From an uncultured Microbacteriaceae bacterium (GTDB lineage Bacteria > Actinomycetota > Actinomycetes > Actinomycetales > Microbacteriaceae): a stretch of DNA of 64,000 nucleotides. The notes under the pieces are model-generated. The model was not told the origin of the DNA and searched no databases. It saw nothing but the letters and a program-made list of their open reading frames with translations. The position numbers and the translations under genes were made by a program. The stretch covers positions 1 to 64,000 of the forward strand of contig CALMSL010000192.1 of NCBI GenBank assembly GCA_937872445.1, in the 5' to 3' direction. Below, piece by piece: positions 9,772 through 20,655 of this stretch; position 1 is the first letter of the stretch; each line of letters opens with the position of its first letter.

Positions 9772-10776
9772 ATGGCAAAACTCTCTACCCTCGATTGGAT
9801 GTTGGACTCCGACCCCGCCCTCCGGTGGCAGGTCGAGCGAGACCTTGCCCTTGAGCCCGAAAGTGTGTGGGGTGAGACTCGAAGACGCGTCGCCAATGAA
9901 GGGTTTGGAGCTCAACTGCTTGCTCATCAGGATGCCGATGGGCAGTGGGCCGGCGGTGCATTCTTTCCCGTGGACTTCGACTTCCACGGGCCCGAAGCGC
10001 AGGACGGAGCCGGCCAGCCGTACACGGCGACAACGTGGTCACTCAACGCGCTTCGGGAGTGGGGAGTGGATGCGTCCGCGCTCGCGGGCACGGCGGAGAA
10101 GCTCGCCGCGAACAGCCGCTGGGAGTACGACAACCTTCCTTACTGGGGCGGCGAAGTCGATTGCTGCATCAACGCGTTCACCCTCGCGAACGGCCTCTGG
10201 CTCGGTGCTGATGTCGGTGGGCTGGTGGACTGGTTTCTCGAACACCAGATGGCGGACGGCGGCTGGAATTGCGAGTGGGTGGACGGTTCGACCAGGTCCT
10301 CCTACCACTCCACGCTCAACTCGCTGAAGGGATTGCTCGCGTTTGATGAGGCTACCGGTGGAACGTCGCAGTCGCGCAGCGCGCGGCACGCGGGCGAGGA
10401 ATTCCTGCTCGCCCGCCATCTCCACCGGCGGCTTTCCACGGGGAAAACGGTCGAACACTGGGCGACGAGGTTTGCCTACCCGTTCCGCTCGATGTACAGC
10501 GTGTTGAATGCGGCGGACTATTTCCGGGCGGCGTCCCTTCACGATCGCACCCCGTCGGACCAGCGGATGTCGGAGGCGATCGACATCATCCGTTCTGCGC
10601 GGGAACCCGACGGCACCTGGATCCAGGAGCGCAGGCATCCTGGCCGCGTCTGGTTCGAAATGGATGTGCCTGCGGGGGAGCCATCACGGTGGCTCACGTT
10701 TTACGCGACGCGCGTCCTGGACTGGTGGGATGAACACCACGGTGCTCCATCGACGACGCTCGGTCAGGTCGGCTAG
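9772..10776 (+). CDS. squalene-cyclase-like / alpha-alpha toroid protein
   Basis: A 334-aa soluble protein with repeat-type signatures of the terpenoid cyclase/prenyltransferase alpha-alpha toroid: HQDADGQWAGG, HQMADGGWNCEW and REPDGTWIQER. It is about half the length of a true squalene-hopene cyclase and has no recognisable DxDD catalytic motif, so squalene cyclisation is unlikely. The ends look complete. Function is unknown. It converges on the DUF1295 gene, overlapping it by 4 nt at the stop codons. Confidence 0.75.
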   Translation: MAKLSTLDWMLDSDPALRWQVERDLALEPESVWGETRRRVANEGFGAQLLAHQDADGQWAGGAFFPVDFDFHGPEAQDGAGQPYTATTWSLNALREWGVDASALAGTAEKLAANSRWEYDNLPYWGGEVDCCINAFTLANGLWLGADVGGLVDWFLEHQMADGGWNCEWVDGSTRSSYHSTLNSLKGLLAFDEATGGTSQSRSARHAGEEFLLARHLHRRLSTGKTVEHWATRFAYPFRSMYSVLNAADYFRAASLHDRTPSDQRMSEAIDIIRSAREPDGTWIQERRHPGRVWFEMDVPAGEPSRWLTFYATRVLDWWDEHHGAPSTTLGQVG

Positions 10777-11597
10777 CCGTCCACGGGAACTTCAGCGCGA
10801 GTCTCACGGCGCGGAAACCACGGGATGATCATGGACGTGCGTGACCGGTAGTCGGAGTATTCCGGATACTTCGACCGGGTGATCGACTCGGTGAAAATCG
10901 TGGAGCCGATGAACAGGAGCGTGAGCAGTACAGCGCCGATGATCGTCCAGGGGATCGTGCCCGCAGCGATGACGCCGAACGCCGCGACCATCCACCACTG
11001 GGCTTGCTCGAAGAAAAAGTTCGGGTGGCGGGAGAAACGAAACAGGCCTGTGGTGAGAAATCGCTGCGCTGGTTGACCGCCGCGGGCAACCGCTGCCGCC
11101 TTCATCCGATGGAAGTTCCACTGCTGCTGGTCCGCAACGATCTCTCCCCACAGAAAGAGCAGAAACAGGATCGCAACCACCGCATCCGGCACTCCGAGAG
11201 TGCGCGGATTCTCCAGCGCAGTGAATGCCGGGAGGGTGATCAGAACGAGCAGCAGGTTCTGGTAGATCACGATGAAGAACAGGTTGAATACCTGGAAAAC
11301 CGGCGGCGACATCCGTGCGCGAAGGACCGCCCAACGGTAGTCCTCAACACCCGAGTAGCCGCCCTTGCGGGCGAAGTTGAATGTCAGGCGCGCACCCCAC
11401 AGCGTGACGAGCACGGCCATGACGATGAGGCGAACGTCCGTGAACCCGGCGAATCCGGCAAACACCCAGACGTACGCGACCGGGGCGATCGACCACAACC
11501 GGTCGACCCACGACGTGTCCTTCGTGACGAGCGACGCGACCCAGCAGAATGCGCTCACGATGATCGCGACGGCGGCGACAACGGCAAGTGAATTCAT
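10773..11597 (-). CDS. DUF1295 membrane protein (steroid 5-alpha-reductase/ICMT-like)
   Basis: A 274-aa polytopic inner-membrane protein with about six transmembrane segments. The C-terminal half has the family signature RFSRHPNFFFEQAQWW followed by KYPEYSDYRSRTSMIIPWFP, which relates it to steroid 5-alpha-reductase and isoprenylcysteine methyltransferase folds. It may act on a lipid or isoprenoid substrate with NADPH or SAM; which of these is not decidable here. It lies downstream of the ureide operon on the same strand but is separated from it by a strong hairpin. Confidence 0.85.
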   Translation of the reverse strand: MNSLAVVAAVAIIVSAFCWVASLVTKDTSWVDRLWSIAPVAYVWVFAGFAGFTDVRLIVMAVLVTLWGARLTFNFARKGGYSGVEDYRWAVLRARMSPPVFQVFNLFFIVIYQNLLLVLITLPAFTALENPRTLGVPDAVVAILFLLFLWGEIVADQQQWNFHRMKAAAVARGGQPAQRFLTTGLFRFSRHPNFFFEQAQWWMVAAFGVIAAGTIPWTIIGAVLLTLLFIGSTIFTESITRSKYPEYSDYRSRTSMIIPWFPRRETRAEVPVDG

Positions 11598-11621: not shown

Positions 11622-11653
11622 CGGGGCGGCTTCCTCTGGTTGAAGCCGCCCCG
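11622..11653 (-). terminator. terminator-like hairpin at the end of the ureide operon
   Basis: A perfect 12-bp inverted repeat (CGGGGCGGCTTC and its complement) with an 8-nt loop lies just past the permease stop codon. The very stable GC stem has no U-tract on the minus strand, as is common for actinobacterial terminators. It separates the ureide operon from the DUF1295 gene. Confidence 0.7.
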
Positions 11654-11660
11654 CCAGCTG

Positions 11661-13598
11661 TTACTTCTTGCTGGATACGTGCCTGCGCCAGCTCCCGTCC
11701 TTGATCTCGGGATGCTTCTTCGCGAGGGCCTCCTCGTAGAGGACACCGGGTACGACGCTGCCATCCTCGAGTTCCACTGCACCGCGGTACAGCCCGGCCG
11801 GTTCGCCCTCGACAACGCGGAGGAGCACGTCCAGCGGCAGCGTGTACAGCTCGCCCTCGACGGCCACGCCGCCGGAGTCCACCTCGTACATGCCGGGATG
11901 TACTCCGCCGATGTCGTGCATGCGGTACTTGGGCGCGGTCTTCGTTTCCTTGACCAGTTCGGCGCCGTTGAGATTGGAGTGCAACTCCAGACCCCGCATG
12001 AGCGTGCCGTTCACGAACAGCAAGTCATCCTTGAGCACGACCTCCTTGTCCTTGCGCCCGGCCCAACCGAAGCCGAGGAGCAGGATGGCGAGGAACGCAT
12101 ATCCGAGCGACACGCCCGGCGAGGCGTTGATCCCCACGGCGACAGCATTGATGAGGCCGAAGAACGACAGCACTGCGCAGATTCCGGACGTGATAGCTGC
12201 CGCGTACATCTTGTGGTCGATCACGAACACGGTAATCGCACCCAGCAGGATGCCGACGAGCACGGCGCCAGAGCCAAAGAGCTGGAGGCCCTGGTAGATG
12301 ACGCCATTGCCCGCAAGGTTGTCGAATCCGACCTTTGCCGCATTTGTTCCGGCCGCACCCAACGAGTTGTCAATCAGACCCGACGCCCACTGGGCGAGGC
12401 TCGGGAGCATGGCGAGGATGATCGCGGGCGCGTACCTGAGTGCGCTCACGCTCGTCGCCTGCGCGCCGATCACGAGGCCGATGTAGAGCAGGATCGGCAC
12501 CAGCGCCTGCATTGGGAATATCCCGAGGAACAGGCCGACCAGACCGCTGAAGCACACGACCGCGACCACTATTCCCGTGACGAGCGAGTATCCGATCCGA
12601 CCGCCAACCGCCTTCCAGCCTGGGTGGCCGATGTAGACGGCCGGCGGGAACGGGGAGCCAAGGAACGAACCGACGATGGCACCGAGACCATCTGCAGTCA
12701 GGATCTGACGCGCCGAGTATCGGTCGCCAGCCGCTGCCGCCGACTCGACGTTCGTCATTGCCTCAGTGAAGTTGTAGATACCGAGGGGGATGGCGGTTGC
12801 CAGGAGTGGGGCGATGTCCTGCATGCCATTGATCACGTCACCCGTGGGGAATGGCAGATAGAGGCCGAGCGTTGCGATCGATTCCGCCACCGCGCTGGGC
12901 TTGAGAATGTTCGACCATCCGGCAAGCACGGCAATCCATGCGATGACCGTTCCTGCAATCACGGCAATGAGCCCGACGGGTATCCCCAGCGGCATCTTCT
13001 TGAATCCGAGCCATCCGACGAGAATGAATCCGAAGGTCACGAACGCGATCCACGGAGCCTCCCACATTTGCGCGGCAGGGCTCATCGAGATGAACGTCAG
13101 CGAGATTCCGGCAAGCGCACCGAGCATCGCCGCGCGGGGCGTCCACTTGCGAATCCACGGTCCGAAGATTGCACCAAGCAGGATGATGACACCGACGATG
13201 AACGCCCACGCCAGCCCAGCTCGCCAGGCTTTAAGCGGGTCGCCCGACTGGATGTACACCGGAAGCATGACAACGAGCACCACGATGAACATGTGGGGCA
13301 CCGACGGACCATAGGGCAGGGCCGCGACATCCGTCCGGTTTTCGCGACGCGCAAGACGCCGGGCAAGGAGGGCGTACCAGATGTTTCCGAGCGGAAGTGC
13401 GATGCCCAGCGCCGGAAGAACCCGGCCGTACACGATGTTGTCCGGCATGTGCACAACGGCCAGGCACAGGCCGGAGAGCACGATGACGTTGAGAAGGACA
13501 TTGGTTCCGAGCCCAAAAAGCCCGTTCCAGTCGCCCTTGACCCACCACTTGATCTGCACCGGCGCAGATGTGGGGGCCTGGGTGGATGTGTTACTCAT
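11661..13598 (-). CDS. NCS2-type permease fused to allophanate-hydrolase C-terminal-like domain
   Basis: A 645-aa fusion. Residues 1-510 are a polytopic permease of the xanthine/uracil (NCS2-like) group with about 12-14 membrane segments and the conserved YNFTEAMTNVESAAAAGDRY and FPPAVYIGHPGWKA stretches. Residues 522-640 form a soluble domain starting DDLLFVNGTLMRG, with ELVKETKTAPKYRM and GGVAVEGELYTLP. These match the C-terminal domain of allophanate hydrolase (AtzF type, gamma-glutamylcyclotransferase-like fold). It is the last gene of the six-gene operon, and its start overlaps the stop of the biuret-hydrolase-like gene by 4 nt. Substrate is inferred to be a ureide or nucleobase-like compound. 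Confidence 0.88.
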   Translation of the reverse strand: MSNTSTQAPTSAPVQIKWWVKGDWNGLFGLGTNVLLNVIVLSGLCLAVVHMPDNIVYGRVLPALGIALPLGNIWYALLARRLARRENRTDVAALPYGPSVPHMFIVVLVVMLPVYIQSGDPLKAWRAGLAWAFIVGVIILLGAIFGPWIRKWTPRAAMLGALAGISLTFISMSPAAQMWEAPWIAFVTFGFILVGWLGFKKMPLGIPVGLIAVIAGTVIAWIAVLAGWSNILKPSAVAESIATLGLYLPFPTGDVINGMQDIAPLLATAIPLGIYNFTEAMTNVESAAAAGDRYSARQILTADGLGAIVGSFLGSPFPPAVYIGHPGWKAVGGRIGYSLVTGIVVAVVCFSGLVGLFLGIFPMQALVPILLYIGLVIGAQATSVSALRYAPAIILAMLPSLAQWASGLIDNSLGAAGTNAAKVGFDNLAGNGVIYQGLQLFGSGAVLVGILLGAITVFVIDHKMYAAAITSGICAVLSFFGLINAVAVGINASPGVSLGYAFLAILLLGFGWAGRKDKEVVLKDDLLFVNGTLMRGLELHSNLNGAELVKETKTAPKYRMHDIGGVHPGMYEVDSGGVAVEGELYTLPLDVLLRVVEGEPAGLYRGAVELEDGSVVPGVLYEEALAKKHPEIKDGSWRRHVSSKK

Positions 13599-14308
13599 TT
13601 GCTAGCTCCAATCTCAGGGATTGCCGCATCGACGGCCGTCAGGAGGTCCGTCGAAGTACTGACCCAGCCGACGATTCCGCCCTGGGCCTTGATCATGTTG
13701 AGCGTGGACTCATAGAACTCGGGAAAGTAGGACCCGGTGCAGTCGGACAGTACCAGGCAGTCGAACCCGCGGTCGTTCGCTTCGCGAGCGGTCGATTGCA
13801 CGCAGACCTCGGTTGTGACTCCCGTCACGATGAGACGAGTGATTCCGTTTGCACGCAGGATCGTTTCGAGATCCGTTCCGTAAAACGCCCCTTTGCCTGG
13901 CTTATCAAGCACGACCTCACCCTCAATGGGGTAGAGCTCCGGGATAATGTCGTGCCCTTTCGATCCACGGGTGAGAAGTCGGCCCATCGGCCCTTGGTCG
14001 CCGATTCGAAGACTCGGATTTCCTCGGTCTCGTTTGGACGGGAAGAGGTCGCTGAGATCCTCGCGATGGCCCTCCCGAGTGTGAATGACCATCCATCCCA
14101 GCTCGCGGAACTTGTCGAGCACTCGTCGCGTAGGTGCGATGGACCCGCGAAGGGTGGACACATCATTTCCGAGTGACTCCCCGAAACCGCCCGCTTCGAC
14201 GAAGTCGCGCTGGAAGTCGATGCACATCAGGGCAACGCGTCCGGGCTCGAAAGCGAACTCGTACGGTTCCGCGGGGACTTTCACTTCGACCTTCTCGGTG
14301 TCGACCAT
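13595..14308 (-). CDS. isochorismatase-fold cysteine hydrolase, biuret-hydrolase (BiuH)-like
   Basis: A 237-aa cysteine hydrolase. The Asp-Lys-Cys triad is visible as Asp31 (CIDFQRDF), Lys139 (DKPGKGAF) and Cys169 (TTEVCVQSTAREANDRGF). Long shared segments with bacterial biuret hydrolase include HTREGHREDLSDL, RLLTRG, IIPELYPIEGE and the AQGG substrate-loop Gln. It should hydrolyse a small ureide amide to an acid plus ammonia. Biuret itself is a candidate, but related enzymes act on triuret and other ureides. It lies in the operon between carbamate kinase (32-nt gap) and the permease (4-nt overlap). Confidence 0.85.
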   Translation of the reverse strand: MVDTEKVEVKVPAEPYEFAFEPGRVALMCIDFQRDFVEAGGFGESLGNDVSTLRGSIAPTRRVLDKFRELGWMVIHTREGHREDLSDLFPSKRDRGNPSLRIGDQGPMGRLLTRGSKGHDIIPELYPIEGEVVLDKPGKGAFYGTDLETILRANGITRLIVTGVTTEVCVQSTAREANDRGFDCLVLSDCTGSYFPEFYESTLNMIKAQGGIVGWVSTSTDLLTAVDAAIPEIGASK

Positions 14309-14340
14309 TGTCGGTTCCTTTCCTTCCGTGTGGGCGGCAA

Positions 14341-15318
14341 TCAGCCATTCGTCGTTACGACTGTTCCGGCGGCGCCCGCGAGAGCTACCGGTAGTTTTCC
14401 AATGGAGGTGATGATGGCGCGTCCGCCGCTGCTCTCCACGAAATCGATGGCGGACTGCACTTTCGGCCCCATGGATCCGGGCGGGAACTGCCCATCCGCA
14501 AGATGGCGGCGCATTTCCTCCACGCCGACGCTCCTCAACGCACGCTGGCTTGGTTTGCTGAAATCCACGTAAACCTCGTCCACGCCCGTCACGAGCACAA
14601 GAGTTGCCACGTCTATTTCTTTGGCGAGCAGCGCCGACGCGCGGTCCTTATCGATGACAGCGTCTATGGGGTGCCAACCGTCCGCGTCCCTGACGACGGG
14701 AATTCCTCCTCCGCCTGCTGCGATCACAATCGCTCCGCTGTCGACGAGGGCACGGATTTGCCGAGACTCGATGATCGTGCGGGGGAGCGGGCTGGCCACG
14801 ACCCTTCGATAGTTTCCCTCCGCAACCTCCGAGACGAACCAGCCTTCCTCAGCAACCCGCTGGCGCGCAACCTCAGCGCTCAGCTGGCCTCCGATCGGCT
14901 TTGACGGCTTCGAGAATGCAGGGTCGTCGAGCTCGATCTCGGCATGCGTGAGAACGGCTACCGCGCGGGTGTCGAGTCCCCGCCGAAGGACGGCGGAATC
15001 GATGGCTACTGCGAGCATATGCCCGATGCCGCCTTGCGAGTCGGCCACCGCAAGCCACAGGGGAAGCGCAGGCAGGCCCTCCACGGTCGCGTCGGGTGCG
15101 ACAAGCTCGCCGCGCCTCAGGATGTAGCCGACCTGGGGACCGTTCCCGTGGGTGACCACGACAGTCCAGCCCGATTCGGCGAGTGCAGCGATCGACTCGG
15201 CGAAGTCTGCGGCCCGCTCGAGCTGCCGTTCCACGGAGCCGGCCTCGCCATCCAGAACCAGGGCATTGCCGCCGACGGCGATGAGCACTGTGCCCGCGGT
15301 TGCGCGCGTCTCCGTCAT
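14341..15318 (-). CDS. arcC: carbamate kinase
   Basis: A 325-aa amino-acid-kinase-fold enzyme interconverting carbamoyl phosphate plus ADP with carbamate plus ATP. Motifs in order are AVGGNAL near the N-terminus, THGNGPQVG, LTHAEIELDDPAF, AAGGGGIPVV, DKDRASALLA and FPPGSMGPKVQSAI. No arginine deiminase or ornithine transcarbamylase gene is nearby. Its carbamoyl phosphate is therefore probably supplied by the FdrA/DUF1116/DUF2877 set, as AllK does in E. coli. The start overlaps the DUF1116 stop by 4 nt. Confidence 0.93.
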   Translation of the reverse strand: MTETRATAGTVLIAVGGNALVLDGEAGSVERQLERAADFAESIAALAESGWTVVVTHGNGPQVGYILRRGELVAPDATVEGLPALPLWLAVADSQGGIGHMLAVAIDSAVLRRGLDTRAVAVLTHAEIELDDPAFSKPSKPIGGQLSAEVARQRVAEEGWFVSEVAEGNYRRVVASPLPRTIIESRQIRALVDSGAIVIAAGGGGIPVVRDADGWHPIDAVIDKDRASALLAKEIDVATLVLVTGVDEVYVDFSKPSQRALRSVGVEEMRRHLADGQFPPGSMGPKVQSAIDFVESSGGRAIITSIGKLPVALAGAAGTVVTTNG

Positions 15319-16712
15319 GAGATTCCACGCCTGTTTGCGAGCGACCGGGCCGCCTGCAGGAACACTTCGGGCGGGGCGGTCACGATTCCGGCACCGATCT
15401 GCCCAACGCCGGCGAGCTTGTGCGCAATTCCAGTGTTGATCAACGGAAGTACTCCTGTGTCCAGCACCTTGAGCACGTCAATGCCTGATGGCGTCCCGGC
15501 GAAGTTGATCGGAGGAAGTGGGAACGCAGGATGCGGTCCCAGGGTGATGCGACGCATCGATTTTGTGGCGGCGATGGCGTCGTCGGGATTGCCGCCGACG
15601 AACTGTGTAATGGCGGGCGATGCGGCCATGGCGAATCCACCCAGTCCCAGCGTTTCGGTGATGGCCGAGTCTCCCAGATCCGGATTTGCGTCATCCGGGC
15701 CATAACCCGGGAAGAAGAGCCCATCTGCGGGGCCCACCGTGGTGGTGAACCATTCGGCGCCCGAGCCTGCGACGCGAAGTCCAAATTCCACGCCGTTGCG
15801 CGCCATGGCGGTAACGAGGGTTGAATTTTCCATTCCGACGGCCGCATCCATGGACAGTTTTGCGGATGCCATGGAGACGTTGAGTGCGAAGTGGTCATTC
15901 CCGGCGAGGAACTCGAGTACTGCGATCGCATCCGAACTCGGTTCCATGGCTGCGATCGTTGGCGCGAGCCGCCGGGTGAGAAGGGACGTTGCCGCAACAT
16001 TGCGGTTGTGGCCCTCATCGCCCATCGACAGTGCCTGACCGATGAGCGACGTGATGTCGATTGGCCCGAATGCTTCAAGCGCCCGGTCAAGTATCGGGCC
16101 AAGCACATCACGCATCCATGACAACCGAGTGATGACTTCGTCATCAAATGCTCCGAACCGCAGTACCTTCCCGAGCCCCTCATTGAGCGAAGCGAACGCG
16201 AGGCGCCCGTCACTCGGGTCGGTGGCCACGAATACAGGCATGGACGGTGCGAGCACGCCGGCCATCGGGCCGACGGCCCCGTGGTGGTGGCACGGATCGA
16301 CGGTGATCTCTCCGCGATCGAGCAGAGCCTCTGCCTGGTCAGGGGTTTCCGCCCAACCTTCGAACAGGGTGGCGCCGATGAGCGCGCCGCGCATAGGCCC
16401 GCACATTCGTTCCCACTCGATCGGCGGGCCAGCATGAAGGAGGGTGCGGCCGTCCGCGATTCCGGGGATCACTTCTTTGGCGGGTCTGACCCGTGTAAGT
16501 TGCGGTCGGACGGAGTGCACGGCCGTGATTGCCCGCGCATTGGCTTCTGCCGTCACGTCGTCGTCCAGGATGAGCGCCAGCCGCGCGACGTCGGCTTCCC
16601 CGAAAGCTGGCGGCCGCCAATCGAGCTGGATCACATCGGCGGCGGGAACTCCTTCAACGATGAGAGGCAGACCAACATTGATGATCCGTGCGACAGGTTC
16701 GAGAATTGTCAT
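15315..16712 (-). CDS. allG: DUF1116 protein, AllG/YlbE-like subunit
   Basis: A 465-aa protein of the DUF1116 family (E. coli YlbE/AllG). Diagnostic stretches are DPCHHHGAVGPMAGV, MGDEGHNRN, GNDHFALNVSMASAKL and ITLGPHPAFPLPPI. In E. coli the FdrA, YlbE and YlbF products have been assigned as subunits of oxamate carbamoyltransferase, which releases carbamoyl phosphate from oxalurate. The same role is inferred here from co-occurrence. The frame is open 135 nt further upstream, but the ATG at 16712 overlaps the fdrA stop (ATGA) and starts the conserved region. Confidence 0.87.
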   Translation of the reverse strand: MTILEPVARIINVGLPLIVEGVPAADVIQLDWRPPAFGEADVARLALILDDDVTAEANARAITAVHSVRPQLTRVRPAKEVIPGIADGRTLLHAGPPIEWERMCGPMRGALIGATLFEGWAETPDQAEALLDRGEITVDPCHHHGAVGPMAGVLAPSMPVFVATDPSDGRLAFASLNEGLGKVLRFGAFDDEVITRLSWMRDVLGPILDRALEAFGPIDITSLIGQALSMGDEGHNRNVAATSLLTRRLAPTIAAMEPSSDAIAVLEFLAGNDHFALNVSMASAKLSMDAAVGMENSTLVTAMARNGVEFGLRVAGSGAEWFTTTVGPADGLFFPGYGPDDANPDLGDSAITETLGLGGFAMAASPAITQFVGGNPDDAIAATKSMRRITLGPHPAFPLPPINFAGTPSGIDVLKVLDTGVLPLINTGIAHKLAGVGQIGAGIVTAPPEVFLQAARSLANRRGIS

Positions 16713-18208
16713 GATGCGTGAGTTCCCGCCTGCTGCGCAGCGACGAACCGTACGGCGGAAGCATTTGTTGCTGCCAGGATGACTCCCGCGTCGCGCAAAA
16801 TCGTCCGTTGACGCTCGATACCCTGCGGATCGGCGGCGGTACCGCACACCGAGGCGACGAATTCCAGCCTGCGCCCTACCGACTCCGCTTCCGACCTCGC
16901 GACCATGACGGCCTCAGCGACGGGCGTGGCCGGGTCGCGGCTGGCACCGTGCCCGAGAACGACATCCAGAAGAATTATTCCCACGCTGGAATCGGCGCCA
17001 GCCTCGATGATCTTGTCTGCCCTGGCTTCAGGATCGATCATCGGGTGAGGTCGCCCTGCGGTGTACTGGTCGTCGCCGAGGTCGAGGATTTCGCAGTCGA
17101 CTCCGGCACGTTTCAGGATGATTTTCGCCTCGGAGGCGAGAGTGCCGCCCGTAAAAAGGCCGAGAACTCGGCCGGGAACCGGTTCGATGGGATCCAGGTC
17201 CGTCACCGCAAGCTCGTGGCCCGCGAGGCGCGCCGTCGCTATGGCGCCGCCCTCAAGCGTGCCGCGGACGACCACTCCGGGGGTAACGGAATCAGGGTCT
17301 GCATCGTCCATTCCGAGGAAGCAGGCAACGACGGGCTTTCCGTGAGACGCAATGCCTTCGAGGCGGGAAATCAGCGCAGTTGCGACGTCGGTGGACGGCG
17401 GTTTGGACACTACGACGATGGCTTCGGAGCCTTCGTCACGTTCCAGCAGGTCGAGCGCGAATCCCGTCATGATCCCGCCGACGTCCGCACTGAGGTCACG
17501 CCCTCCGACGCCAATCAACTGGGACACACCCACGCCAGCAAGATCGAGCAGTCGCGAGACTTCCTGCGCGCCGGTACCCGAGGCAGCGACCATACCCACT
17601 TTTCCCTGCTTCACGACGTTGGCGAATCCGAGAGGAATACCGTCGATGATCGCGGTGCCGCAGTCCGGCCCCATGAAGAGAACTCCGCCCGCTACGGCGA
17701 GTTTTTTGAGGCGCACCTCGTCCTCGACGGCGACGTTGTCCGAGAAACAGAGAATATGGAGCCCATTCCTGATCGCGCGTTCGGCAACGATGGGAGCGTA
17801 GGTCCCGGCAATCGAAATCGCTGCAAGGTTGGCCGGAGATTCCCGGTCGCCGGCCAGCGCGGCGTGAATCCCTTCGTCCACGGTTCCCGGTCGCTGGTCC
17901 TCAATGGCGCCCGAGGTCTCGACAGCCGTAAGCCCGGCCTCCGCGGCGTCGAGTGCCTCAGTCGCCGTGTCTTCGCTCTCCGCGCGAACGACGAAGACCA
18001 GGTCATCGGATTCCGCGTTCAGATCGGGCGGGAGCATGTCCGAGTCGGCGAGGATTCCACGATTTGCAGGGGTCGCCATGACCGCTCCGACCCGTATCAC
18101 TCCCTCACGTTTCTCCGTTGCCGACGCGATCGCCATCAACGCCACCGAGTCGCGATAGAAGTGGTGCAGAACTCGGCTGCTGAGGACCGTCGTTTTTGGA
18201 GAGTTCAT
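16709..18208 (-). CDS. fdrA: FdrA/AllF, acyl-CoA-synthetase-like subunit
   Basis: A 499-aa protein of the FdrA family, built like fused succinyl-CoA-synthetase subunits. A CoA-ligase-type Rossmann region includes GGVLFMGPDCGTAII and MVAASGTGAQEVSRLLD, and a ligase-like half includes LFTGGTLASEAK and LLDVVLGHGASRDPA. It is shorter than E. coli FdrA (about 555 aa) but otherwise typical. It is the presumed catalytic or nucleotide-fold partner of the DUF1116 and DUF2877 proteins. Start ATG at 18208 overlaps the allH stop by 4 nt, and the conserved N-terminus SSRVLHHFYRDSVALM supports it. Confidence 0.88.
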   Translation of the reverse strand: MNSPKTTVLSSRVLHHFYRDSVALMAIASATEKREGVIRVGAVMATPANRGILADSDMLPPDLNAESDDLVFVVRAESEDTATEALDAAEAGLTAVETSGAIEDQRPGTVDEGIHAALAGDRESPANLAAISIAGTYAPIVAERAIRNGLHILCFSDNVAVEDEVRLKKLAVAGGVLFMGPDCGTAIIDGIPLGFANVVKQGKVGMVAASGTGAQEVSRLLDLAGVGVSQLIGVGGRDLSADVGGIMTGFALDLLERDEGSEAIVVVSKPPSTDVATALISRLEGIASHGKPVVACFLGMDDADPDSVTPGVVVRGTLEGGAIATARLAGHELAVTDLDPIEPVPGRVLGLFTGGTLASEAKIILKRAGVDCEILDLGDDQYTAGRPHPMIDPEARADKIIEAGADSSVGIILLDVVLGHGASRDPATPVAEAVMVARSEAESVGRRLEFVASVCGTAADPQGIERQRTILRDAGVILAATNASAVRFVAAQQAGTHAS

Positions 18209-19065
18209 GCTGCGCTTTCGACTGATCTCGTGTTCATGGAAGCTGCCAGAACGCTCACCAAACCGACCAGCAGATCCACCCCCGAGGTTGCACCCCACTG
18301 GCTCGCACGCTGCACCGTCAGATCCGGGTCTCCGTCTCCGGCGAGCGTGTCGACAAGGTCGTGAACGTGCTGGCCGAAGCGCCCCTGCATCGCGGCCTTC
18401 AGATAGTGGCGCGACGCCAGCGTCGTCCGTGGAAGAAAGGGCACTATTTGGCGGGCAAGGATGCTTACCTCGTTGAGAAGCCCGAAGACGTGAAGTCCGG
18501 CGAATATTCCGACGATGACATCGTCCCCCGACGGGGTTGTTCCCGGGCCCGCGCCGATGGTTACGCTCAGCATTTCATCGCCCAGGTTCGCGGCGAGAGC
18601 GCTCTGCGCGATGCTCGGTGCTTTCAGGCGGATTGGCTCAGGACTCAGAGGCCCGGCCGTCGCACGTGATGAGGTGTGGGCAGCCACTGCGCGTTGGTGG
18701 GCCAGCACTGAAACGGCCGGGATTGCTCGTGCCGCGAGATTGAGGTTGACCAGTGCCCAAACAGCGGACTGGCCTGACCAGCCCGCCAGAAGCACACTTC
18801 CCGTTGGAGGGTTATGGCTAAGGATGTCGGCGCGTACGCGATGAAAATCGACGTGAGCAAGGCACACGCCACCCGGCATCAGACCAGACCGTTCAGGGGA
18901 GATGATCAACAACTCATCGCCCGACGCCTGTTTGCGCGCCGATCGCAGCACAACGGCGGATTGTCCGACATGGACGACATGGAATGGCGAGGTGAAGGCG
19001 GAAAGCATGAGCGTGGTATCAACCCGCATCCGTGCCGGGGCCGAAATCCTCGCTGGCATCGCCAT
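18205..19065 (-). CDS. allH: DUF2877 protein, AllH/YlbF-like subunit
   Basis: A 286-aa protein of the DUF2877 family, first gene of the ureide operon. The family signature GAGPGTTPSGDDVIVGIFAG is present at about residues 190-209, and RHYLKAAMQGRFGQHVHDLV follows. It is the predicted third subunit of an oxamate-carbamoyltransferase-like complex with the FdrA and DUF1116 proteins. The ATG lies 8 nt after a TACTAT box, so the operon mRNA may be leaderless. Further ATG codons at residues 3 and 13 leave some doubt about the exact start. Confidence 0.83.
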   Translation of the reverse strand: MAMPARISAPARMRVDTTLMLSAFTSPFHVVHVGQSAVVLRSARKQASGDELLIISPERSGLMPGGVCLAHVDFHRVRADILSHNPPTGSVLLAGWSGQSAVWALVNLNLAARAIPAVSVLAHQRAVAAHTSSRATAGPLSPEPIRLKAPSIAQSALAANLGDEMLSVTIGAGPGTTPSGDDVIVGIFAGLHVFGLLNEVSILARQIVPFLPRTTLASRHYLKAAMQGRFGQHVHDLVDTLAGDGDPDLTVQRASQWGATSGVDLLVGLVSVLAASMNTRSVESAA

Positions 19066-19073
19066 ACTTAGGA

Positions 19074-19079
19074 ATAGTA
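19074..19079 (-). promoter_or_regulatory. -10 box of the ureide operon
   Basis: TACTAT on the minus strand ends 8 nt before the allH ATG, consistent with a leaderless operon transcript. No clear -35 was found; activation by the divergent PucR protein would be consistent with that. Confidence 0.45.
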
Positions 19080-19110
19080 GGACCCACGACTCGGGTCAGG
19101 CTCGGTCCGG

Positions 19111-19133
19111 ATTGGACGAAAGTGCGTCCCAAT
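19111..19133. promoter_or_regulatory. inverted repeat between allH and pucR, candidate operator
   Basis: ATTGGACG and CGTCCCAAT form an interrupted dyad (one-base bulge, 6-nt loop) in the 66-nt divergent region. A second short repeat, GACCC-N7-GGGTC, lies at 19081-19097. The dyad covers the first possible pucR start codon at 19132, which favours the later ATG. PucR or autoregulatory binding is a guess from position. Confidence 0.4.
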
Positions 19134-19161
19134 GTTGGCCGAAATGGACAATGATGGTGGC

Positions 19162-20655
19162 ATGAGCGCCATCACCGTCCGAGAAGTGCTGACTCTTGCC
19201 GCCTTGCGCGGAAACTTTGTCGTGGCTGGCCAGAACGGCCTCGAACGGGTGGTCACCGGCGTCAACGTGATGGAAGTCCCCGACATCGAATCCTTCGTGA
19301 AACGAGGCGAGCTCCTCCTCACCACGGCCTATCCGCTGCGCGAGCACCCCGAAGATCTCGCCGTTCTCGTTCACACTCTGTCGCGATTGGGACTCGCCGC
19401 ACTTGCCGTGAAGACCGGCCGGTATCTCGAACGGCTTCCGGACGACGCGCTTGCCATGGCAAACGAGCTGGGCTTGCCGGTCATACTCCTCGCTGAGGAC
19501 ACATCGTTCAATGAAGTCATCGGGGCTGTACTGGCTATAGTCCTCACCGAATACGGGGCCGACCCGGCAGGGGCGGAAGAGATCCGTGAACGACTGACTG
19601 GGGTTGCGCTCGCTGGCGGCGGTCTGATGGAGATTGCCCGAACGCTGGCCGGCGCCCTCGACAGGCACGTGAGCATTCTCGACCCGGAGGGTGTGGTACT
19701 CGGGGAAGGTGGCGTCCTCCCGGACGAGAATGTCGGCGAATCGTGGGAGTTCCCAGTTACCGTGGGGGGCCGTGAGCGCGGACTCATCATTGTCAATGGC
19801 ACGGATGAACCGACGCTCGGTCAACGGAGATTGGTGAGGCAGGCGTGTTTCGCCGCAGGAATGCACATTGCCCAGGCGCTTGCGAGTCTGGAACTTGACC
19901 GTCAGATGCGGGTCCTGTTCCTGGAAGAGCTCGTGGCGGGAAAGGCCGTCGATGAGTCGCTGGTGCGTGAGCGGTCTCGGTTGTTCGGATGGGACTTTCG
20001 ATCCGACCACGCCGTCATTCTTGCCCGGCTGGGCCAGGAGCTAGGCGACTCCGTGGTGGTGTCTGCTGCTCGCACCGGTCTGCCGCGAGGCGGGCTCGCC
20101 TGGGCGCGAGGGCAGGAAGTGGTTGCCATCGTGCCCGCAGAGTCCATCCCTACCGAAGCCGTCCCATGGCTCCAGGCCGATAGCTGGCGAAAGGCTCTGG
20201 AACGGGCTGGCGGGGGCGACGTGTACGTCGCCACGGGGAGTGTCGCTCGATCTGCGGCGGAACTTGCTGAATCCCACTCGGCAGCCCGCGAATCTCTGTC
20301 CATCGCCCAGGCCACTGGACGGAAGAACGTCCGGCACGATGTGCTGACGCTGGAACGGGTCATCCTCTCAGTGCCCGCGGATCTGCTTGCCGAGCTCATA
20401 CACCGCGAGCTTGGCCCGATTGTTGATGCCGACATCGCCAATGGCTCAGACCTGTGCGCAACTCTCGAGATGTTTCTGGGAACCGGGAACGCCGCCGACG
20501 CTGCCCGCAGACTGTTCATCCACTACAACACGATGAAGCACAGGATGTCGCGCATTGCCGGCCTTATCACGGCCGATCTGAGCGACCCGAGAGCTCGATT
20601 GCGACTGTCGTTTGCCCTGCAGGCACGGAAGCTCGTGCTCGACGCCCATCGCTAG
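19162..20655 (+). CDS. pucR: PucR family transcriptional regulator
   Basis: Regulator of about 497 aa. The N-terminal PucR domain occupies roughly the first 120 residues (TVREVLTLAALRGNFVVAGQNGLERVV, then SFVKRGELLLTTAYPLREHP). A central GGDEF-like/CdaR-type region follows. The C-terminal PucR helix-turn-helix is LEMFLGTGNAADAARRLFIHYNTMKHRMSRI. Relatives control purine and ureide catabolism. Its divergent position makes it the obvious regulator of the AllFGH-like operon. An ATG at 19132 could add ten residues, but a dyad overlaps it and the family homology begins at the later Met. Confidence 0.88.
   Translation: MSAITVREVLTLAALRGNFVVAGQNGLERVVTGVNVMEVPDIESFVKRGELLLTTAYPLREHPEDLAVLVHTLSRLGLAALAVKTGRYLERLPDDALAMANELGLPVILLAEDTSFNEVIGAVLAIVLTEYGADPAGAEEIRERLTGVALAGGGLMEIARTLAGALDRHVSILDPEGVVLGEGGVLPDENVGESWEFPVTVGGRERGLIIVNGTDEPTLGQRRLVRQACFAAGMHIAQALASLELDRQMRVLFLEELVAGKAVDESLVRERSRLFGWDFRSDHAVILARLGQELGDSVVVSAARTGLPRGGLAWARGQEVVAIVPAESIPTEAVPWLQADSWRKALERAGGGDVYVATGSVARSAAELAESHSAARESLSIAQATGRKNVRHDVLTLERVILSVPADLLAELIHRELGPIVDADIANGSDLCATLEMFLGTGNAADAARRLFIHYNTMKHRMSRIAGLITADLSDPRARLRLSFALQARKLVLDAHR

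Follow-up and report, generated by a model that had tools for sequence, protein, structure and literature searches.

The closest described relatives of the operon reported here belong to two systems. The first is triuret hydrolysis: structures 6xix and 6xj4/6xje are those of the Herbaspirillum triuret hydrolase TrtA, six positions separate the consensus of TrtA (F35, N41, A134, E160, Y187 and I205) from that of biuret hydrolase, BiuH (Y, Y, S, D, T and V), and both TrtA and the cyanuric acid hydrolase AtzD give carboxybiuret (available portions of PMC7948467). The second is the AllFGH complex of Escherichia coli, an oxamic transcarbamylase according to the accessible text of PMC11326118. In comammox and archaeal ammonia oxidisers, trtA/biuH lies beside allFGHK (PMC12625717, as excerpted). 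Genes of both kinds also form one operon in an uncultured Microbacteriaceae bacterium (assembly GCA_937872445.1), within the stretch of 64,000 nucleotides (contig CALMSL010000192.1, positions 1 to 64,000) that was analysed and is called the window below. The operon runs on the minus strand in the order allH-fdrA(allF)-allG-carbamate kinase-hydrolase-permease/AH_C, with pucR divergent (Table 1), so that all three subunits of an AllFGH-type transcarbamylase, AllF, AllG and AllH, are encoded together. On balance, it appears to import and degrade triuret: carboxybiuret would be formed, its carbamoyl group phosphorolysed, and ATP gained via carbamate kinase.

The hydrolase is of the TrtA type

With the BiuH equivalog NF050097, whose cut-off is 370 bits, the window hydrolase reaches just 270.9, and its closest solved structures are those of TrtA (6xix at 267.8 bits, also 6xj4/6xje). 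It carries the TrtA letter at all six discriminating positions, together with the catalytic D24/K129/C162 and Q202, and over the aligned parts is 55.4% identical to TrtA, compared with 49.3 and 50.9% for two BiuH proteins. In a tree of 34 rows, from which two pieces of locus L010 (loci are cited by L number) were excluded, 24 TrtA-type rows stand apart from BiuH as one group with support 100/99. Four rows of described-type TrtA are the sister group of the seven-row clade that includes the window (95/82), and Herbaspirillum TrtA is placed among the rows linked to AllFGH. The latter do not form one clade, so the known triuret hydrolases are nested within the AllFGH-linked group. Because score, signature residues and tree are all of the TrtA type, triuret, not biuret, is the predicted substrate, and the label ‘BiuH-like’ given to the enzyme in a sequence-only reading of this DNA is not supported. 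The genes biuH and atzF, which form the context of described TrtA, are both missing from the window operon.

Two other assignments of the hydrolase were weighed. As a biuret hydrolase, it would leave AllFGH to split allophanate into carbamoyl phosphate and carbamate. The shared hydrolase family, the derivation of AH_C from allophanate hydrolase, the fact that allophanate is oxalurate minus one carbonyl, and the BiuH of the closest AllF/AllG kin would all suit such a route, yet with the BiuH cut-off missed and the discriminating residues belonging to TrtA it seems improbable. Less probable still is a RutB-like enzyme in a cluster that salvages pyrimidine nitrogen, which is how the E. coli counterpart is interpreted (Rut-like pyrimidine use) in the available part of PMC12928451. 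RutB is a relative, and the E. coli version has a permease of the cytosine/purine family; the match to RutB profile TIGR03614, however, is 101.9 bits for a cut-off of 377.95, RutB chains in the PDB score 95–99 bits against 268 for TrtA, and no further rut gene occurs among the six operon genes.

Genomic context and the carbamoyl donor

The search for AllG gave 419 relatives, the best 80 of which were kept as stretches. Among 396 actinobacterial genomes, AllG occurs in 49, at 52 places, and besides the window 51 places in 50 stretches were examined; the resulting 130 stretches may include overlap between the two sets. A TrtA-type hydrolase is present in 17 of the 130, with carbamate kinase in 15 of these, and all 13 stretches with AH_C outside AtzF (allophanate hydrolase) fall among the 17. 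The same set is found again in Microbacteriaceae, Chloroflexota, enterobacteria and Peptoclostridium. Within the window's genus, four of eight genomes have AllG (the window's included), and the other three (L209–L211) share the architecture. The row of the anaerobe Peptoclostridium acidaminophilum contains PucR, two permease copies, hydrolase, AllH, FdrA, AllG and carbamate kinase, that is, the operon core, with no AH_C in the stretch. A profile search with the hydrolase found 19 places in a sample of the same size, 396 genomes, possibly an undercount since scoring was limited to seven candidates per genome, and four weak places were left out of the context comparison. Eight places score above 350 bits and have the TrtA letters at F35, N41, E160, Y187 and I205; seven are BiuH-type at 278–305 bits, two of them varying at one or two discriminating positions. 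AllG adjoins six of the eight TrtA-type places, in four cases along with AllF and carbamate kinase, and none of the seven BiuH-type places in the 13–16 kb fetched (two of those genomes have AllG elsewhere). A comparison of neighbourhoods across actinobacteria, proposed in the sequence-only reading, places AllG next to most TrtA-type hydrolases and next to no BiuH-type one.

AllG is single-copy in the window's genome (3.06 Mb, 214 contigs, 96.5% complete) and is 52% identical to its counterpart in E. coli CFT073. Trees of AllG and AllF were built from 43 and 41 rows chosen from 137. At three places (L130/L079, L129/L011 and (L002, L033)/L064), both trees join sequences from TrtA operons to sister sequences from AtzD operons, with bootstrap 100. 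The AllG stretches hold 33 AtzD-family genes, and all 11 that were scanned exceed the cut-off of 360 set for the cyanuric acid hydrolase equivalog; the genes of L011, L064 and L079 reach 539–556 bits, comparable to Rhizobium AtzD at 543. Since two unrelated upstream enzymes with one product stand beside closely related AllFGH, the donor is predicted to be carboxybiuret or its decarboxylation product, biuret. The TrtA context label changes 10 times on the AllG tree (shuffled mean 13.1; 25 of 500 shuffles as low) and eight times on the AllF tree (11.9; 6 of 500). AllG has a clear AtzF (>300 bits) beside it in four of the best 80 loci and in one of the 50 from actinobacteria; weaker AtzF-like matches raise these counts to 8 and 7 at 70–110 bits and may be other amidases. 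The few loci with a clear AtzF favour allophanate as the AllFGH product.

Ring-opening enzymes of the AtzD/barbiturase family are the commonest of the upstream enzymes sought by AllG (22 of 80 and 10 of 50 stretches), as in L011, L012, L027, L064, L079 and many Geodermatophilaceae. A 454-residue membrane protein with 11 hydrophobic stretches and no Pfam match (L011:7016-8380, Aminobacter pSR8) has relatives in the AtzD and AllFGH clusters of L012, L027, L064 and L079, and is perhaps a transporter.

The allantoin pathway is the known setting in which AllFGH might be fed oxalurate. In the window's genome AllD has no match, and the best scores for allantoinase (259 bits, cut-off 357.85) and AllC (188.8, cut-off 597.75) are low. 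The allantoinase match is a dihydropyrimidinase, at 568 bits against a cut-off of 393. Urease (21.9 bits, cut-off 680), AtzF (158.6, cut-off 511) and urea carboxylase (541.8, cut-off 1303.85) are likewise under cut-off; at the completeness given, a missed gene is possible, and allantoicase and other purine genes lay outside the search. The operon is therefore probably not fed by allantoin made in the cell, and any urea formed probably goes unused. Neither allantoin genes nor placement in the AllD-linked group, the two marks of an allantoin-pathway oxamic transcarbamylase, were found: the allantoin-linked AllG (K-12, L157 and L158) form a separate group at 100/100, away from the window, and the AllF counterpart is a weaker group (79/77), of three rows in each tree. 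That this is a small-ureide operon outside the allantoin pathway, as first proposed from sequence, is thus upheld, with none of allantoinase, AllC and AllD over cut-off elsewhere in the genome. Oxalurate could still arise otherwise, by import or from the hydrolase (e.g. from oxaluramide), and be converted by AllFGH to carbamoyl phosphate and oxamate. The activity of the E. coli complex agrees with this, as does PMC12625717 (as excerpted), where the allFGHK genes next to trtA/biuH are taken for an oxalurate pathway of their own. The separate allantoin-type AllG group, the lack of AllD and of any recognised oxamate-using gene in the operon, the triuret-type residues of the hydrolase, and an AH_C left with no role make the oxalurate route unlikely. 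An amidase-like reading frame with four in-frame stops is present elsewhere in the genome (G000:C141:43892-45331).

Many AllG stretches (33 of 80 and 18 of 50; L034, L036, L040, L044 etc.) contain none of the partners sought, carbamate kinase included, and many of them are cut by contig ends. They likely represent another use of AllFGH. With a context this labile, and with AllFGH-linked hydrolases that have no known assays, the true substrate of the window operon might be a different, still unnamed acylurea that resembles triuret in size and shape and is handled by the same chain of hydrolase, AllFGH and carbamate kinase. Because the characterised triuret hydrolase nests within the AllFGH-linked group, this is a minor possibility, and triuret remains the preferred substrate.

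Three records in the collection deserve mention. The E. coli ColV plasmid pAPEC-O2-ColV (L010) carries an equivalent cluster, whose hydrolase occupies two reading frames in the record. The record titled Bacillus sp. AZ43 (unverified; L057) has its AllG among Geodermatophilaceae and is probably mislabelled. The 11.85-Mb Nonomuraea record NZ_LT559118.1 (L013) is classed as a plasmid and is chromosome-sized.

The AH_C fusion and a proposed route

The last gene of the operon had been described as an NCS2 permease fusion. The fusion stands, and its tail, unnamed at that stage, is an AH_C domain; the NCS2 label is not confirmed, as a scan of 12 permease members, that of the window among them, gave no Pfam family for any at E 0.1, and their joint profile matched nothing in the PDB at E 10. 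The best PDB match of the AH_C tail is 5c5z, which we take to be C4763 of E. coli CFT073. The aligned part of 5c5z is identical to the stand-alone AH_C gene of that strain (P0009), which sits between carbamate kinase and a cytosine permease, near a TrtA-type hydrolase, AllH, FdrA and AllG. A 2015 structure paper on C4763 is cited in the accessible part of PMC7558591.

AH_C is fused to the permease in the window and in L014–L019, joined in frame with carbamate kinase in L123 (both are separate in its close relative L124), and a separate neighbouring gene in L022–L024, L055 and L124. Of these, L015 is Terrimesophilobacter mesophilus DSM 19267, a relative that carries the operon as well. The four Chloroflexota loci (L022, L023, L024, L055) keep the order of the window, with permease and AH_C as adjoining, unfused genes. 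That AH_C has been joined to two operon partners, in two different fusions, supports its role in the same pathway. No AH_C gene outside AtzF was found in five TrtA-type loci (L031, L129, L164, L167 and L130; in L167, AtzF is present with an AH_C of its own), which indicates that AH_C is accessory and fits an accessory decarboxylase in either order of reactions. Most stand-alone or fused AH_C contain NGTLMRGL, and AtzF rows have GAHLSG-like letters. The window protein is not an allophanate hydrolase, having AH_C alone and no amidase domain. The suggested decarboxylase role draws in part on work in Kluyveromyces that reportedly agrees with it. It also draws on the available text of PMC5770610, by which the N and C domains of allophanate hydrolase catalyse sequential reactions; the literature searched, from which most subscription journals were absent, gives no residue-level mechanism for AH_C. 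L202 (G248:C51) may hold a split allophanate hydrolase: its stand-alone AH_C has as neighbours a formamidase-like gene, a hydrolase of the BiuH type and an amidase distantly similar (25%) to AtzF.

From these comparisons we infer the following route for triuret. Judging by sequence, residues and tree, the TrtA-type hydrolase would remove NH3 from triuret to give 1-carboxybiuret. The AllF-AllG-AllH complex, as a relative of E. coli oxamic transcarbamylase, would then move the terminal carbamoyl group onto phosphate. Its donor may be carboxybiuret, giving allophanate (just as oxalurate would give oxamate), or biuret from decarboxylation, giving urea. Carbamate kinase converts carbamoyl phosphate and ADP to ATP, CO2 and NH3, and carbamoyl phosphorolysis followed by this reaction, the energy step envisaged in the sequence-only reading, remains likely. 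AH_C may act as an accessory decarboxylase of an unstable N-carboxy intermediate (carboxybiuret or allophanate), which the permease tether would place at the point of entry. For both orders, if allophanate is only decarboxylated, the predicted net reaction is triuret + ADP + Pi -> ATP + urea + 2 NH3 + 2 CO2. A broader proposal, made tentatively, is that these AllFGH are carboxybiuret phosphorolases (carboxybiuret + Pi -> carbamoyl phosphate + allophanate), that triuret (via TrtA) and cyanuric acid (via AtzD) share one route of substrate-level phosphorylation in actinobacteria, Chloroflexota, a clostridial anaerobe and some E. coli, and that stand-alone or fused AH_C are N-carboxy-ureide decarboxylases. 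The proposal also suggests that AllFGH is a general family of acylurea phosphorolases, with the E. coli allantoin branch as one member.

Several observations weigh against a triuret route. Agreement at TrtA residues does not prove triuret to be the substrate, and we know of no assay for any AllFGH-linked hydrolase; the Peptoclostridium enzyme differs at two positions (H for E160, F for Y187), and position A134 is S in L019, L123, L124 and L129. Forcing the AllFGH-linked rows into one clade was rejected (approximately unbiased test, AU p 0.01) for a group that was named after the first tree. The ring-opening enzymes by AllG are of the cyanuric-acid-hydrolase type, and barbiturase is also possible; frequent shifts of the context label mean that the TrtA/AtzD pairing is not unique. 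The nearest AllF/AllG kin outside the window's TrtA-type clade (L020, L021) carry BiuH and AtzF. The two TrtA-type places that do not adjoin AllG (L200, L201) pair the same hydrolase and permease with AtzF (319 and 326 bits) in genomes lacking AllG, so the permease accompanies the hydrolase in both kinds of cluster. In L164 and L167, which have a TrtA-type gene and permease by AllG, no AllF, AllH or carbamate kinase was found at E 0.01 (in L167, the only carbamate kinase match was a chance-like 29.6 bits), nor was AllH in L033, L123 and L124, so some loci do not retain the full set. A pathway ending in urea would waste two of four nitrogens in a genome without urease. The decarboxylase role of AH_C is a guess from a homologue, and the only substrates with which E. 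coli AllFGH was assayed, as far as the accessible text of PMC11326118 goes, are oxamate and carbamoyl phosphate.

Operon layout and comparison with described systems

The six genes and the divergent PucR lie where they had been placed, and the coordinates give the same four 4-nucleotide overlaps and single 32-nucleotide gap (Table 1). What had escaped notice was AH_C and the equivalent sets in CFT073, Chloroflexota and Peptoclostridium. FdrA falls slightly under the cut-off of its subfamily; carbamate kinase passes NF009007 and is below cut-off for TIGR00746 (312.4 bits, cut-off 358.25). The permease part is 47% identical to each of two ‘xanthine permeases’ in the Peptoclostridium cluster.

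Table 1. Coordinates of the operon, its regulator and associated non-coding elements in the window.
Feature	Position	Strand	Evidence
pucR, divergent regulator	19132..20655 (ATG 19132, alternative ATG 19163)	+	PF07905 2e-33, HTH_30 7.4e-16
allH (DUF2877), transcarbamylase subunit	18205..19065	-	PF11392 73.3 bits, cut-off 25, 3.1e-20
allF/fdrA, transcarbamylase subunit	16709..18208	-	NF004760 413.9 bits (cut-off 433); PF00549 4.8e-32
allG (DUF1116), transcarbamylase subunit	15315..16712	-	PF06545 299.9 bits, 1.3e-89
Carbamate kinase	14341..15318	-	NF009007 320.2 bits, cut-off 266
TrtA-type isochorismatase-like cysteine hydrolase	13595..14308	-	PF00857 3.3e-44; best PDB 6xix; TrtA residues; tree
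Permease-AH_C fusion gene, last of operon	11661..13598	-	Two parts, listed separately
Permease part, residues 1-526 of fused protein	12021..13598	-	No Pfam match; 47% identity to Peptoclostridium ‘xanthine permeases’
AH_C domain (allophanate hydrolase C-terminal), residues 527-641 of fused protein	11676..12020	-	PF21986 6.5e-28
Two GTCCNNTYCGGNC copies, pucR/allH intergenic region, candidate operator	19105-19117, 19137-19149 (region 19103..19151)	-	Alignment with L014-L018
TACTAT, possible -10 element	19074..19079	-	Identical in window and five relatives (L014-L018)
G+C-rich hairpin, 12 bp, after last gene	11622..11653	-	z -3.85, no T-run

PucR presumably senses a ureide. The candidate operator GTCCNNTYCGGNC, a pattern picked after the alignment had been seen, has three matches in the window for 1.05 expected (13 of 100 shuffles have as many), and its copies are aligned in the relatives, not letter-perfect in all. 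The possible -10 element is 8 nucleotides ahead of the allH ATG, from which a leaderless start would follow; a sigma-70 promoter scan listed no site. At the end of the operon, the hairpin earlier called terminator-like is indeed strong; it lacks a T-run and is outside the five terminator-like sites listed by a scan. Beyond it, directly downstream on the same strand, is a gene for a DUF1295 membrane protein (10773-11597).

The operon is ordinary by its parts; the combination is conserved and, within the literature searched, unexplained, with no proposal for phosphorolysis of a triuret product among the papers listed, and a sharp prediction follows from it. A testable job is thereby offered for a gene set also present in CFT073, a uropathogenic E. 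coli for whose AH_C protein a structure has been solved. Under the proposal, polyurea compounds (fertiliser impurities, uric acid oxidation products and s-triazine breakdown products) would yield ATP and not ammonia alone.

Compared with described systems, the operon resembles allFGHK of E. coli K-12 in its three-subunit complex of FdrA, DUF1116 and DUF2877 proteins with carbamate kinase, AllG being 50% identical to K-12 YlbE. It differs in having no allantoin genes alongside or over cut-off in the genome, in its TrtA-type hydrolase, AH_C and different permease, and in the separate AllG group. With the trtA-biuH-atzF triuret pathway of Herbaspirillum and Rhizobium it shares a hydrolase of the same tree group and residues. 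In place of BiuH and AtzF it has AllFGH and carbamate kinase, so that carbamoyl phosphate and ATP are predicted, not hydrolysis alone; AH_C is common to AtzF and the window protein, and the amidase domain of AtzF has no counterpart. The TrtA/BiuH-type hydrolases of comammox and archaeal ammonia oxidisers likewise adjoin allFGHK, but those loci carry atzF or a gatA-like amidase and are interpreted as two separate pathways in the excerpted PMC12625717. The cluster of E. coli CFT073 (L002) comprises the same seven roles (hydrolase, AllH, FdrA, AllG, carbamate kinase, AH_C and permease), although there AH_C is a gene of its own, the permease belongs to PF02133, the neighbours are LysR and MurR/RpiR regulators, and the order is different.

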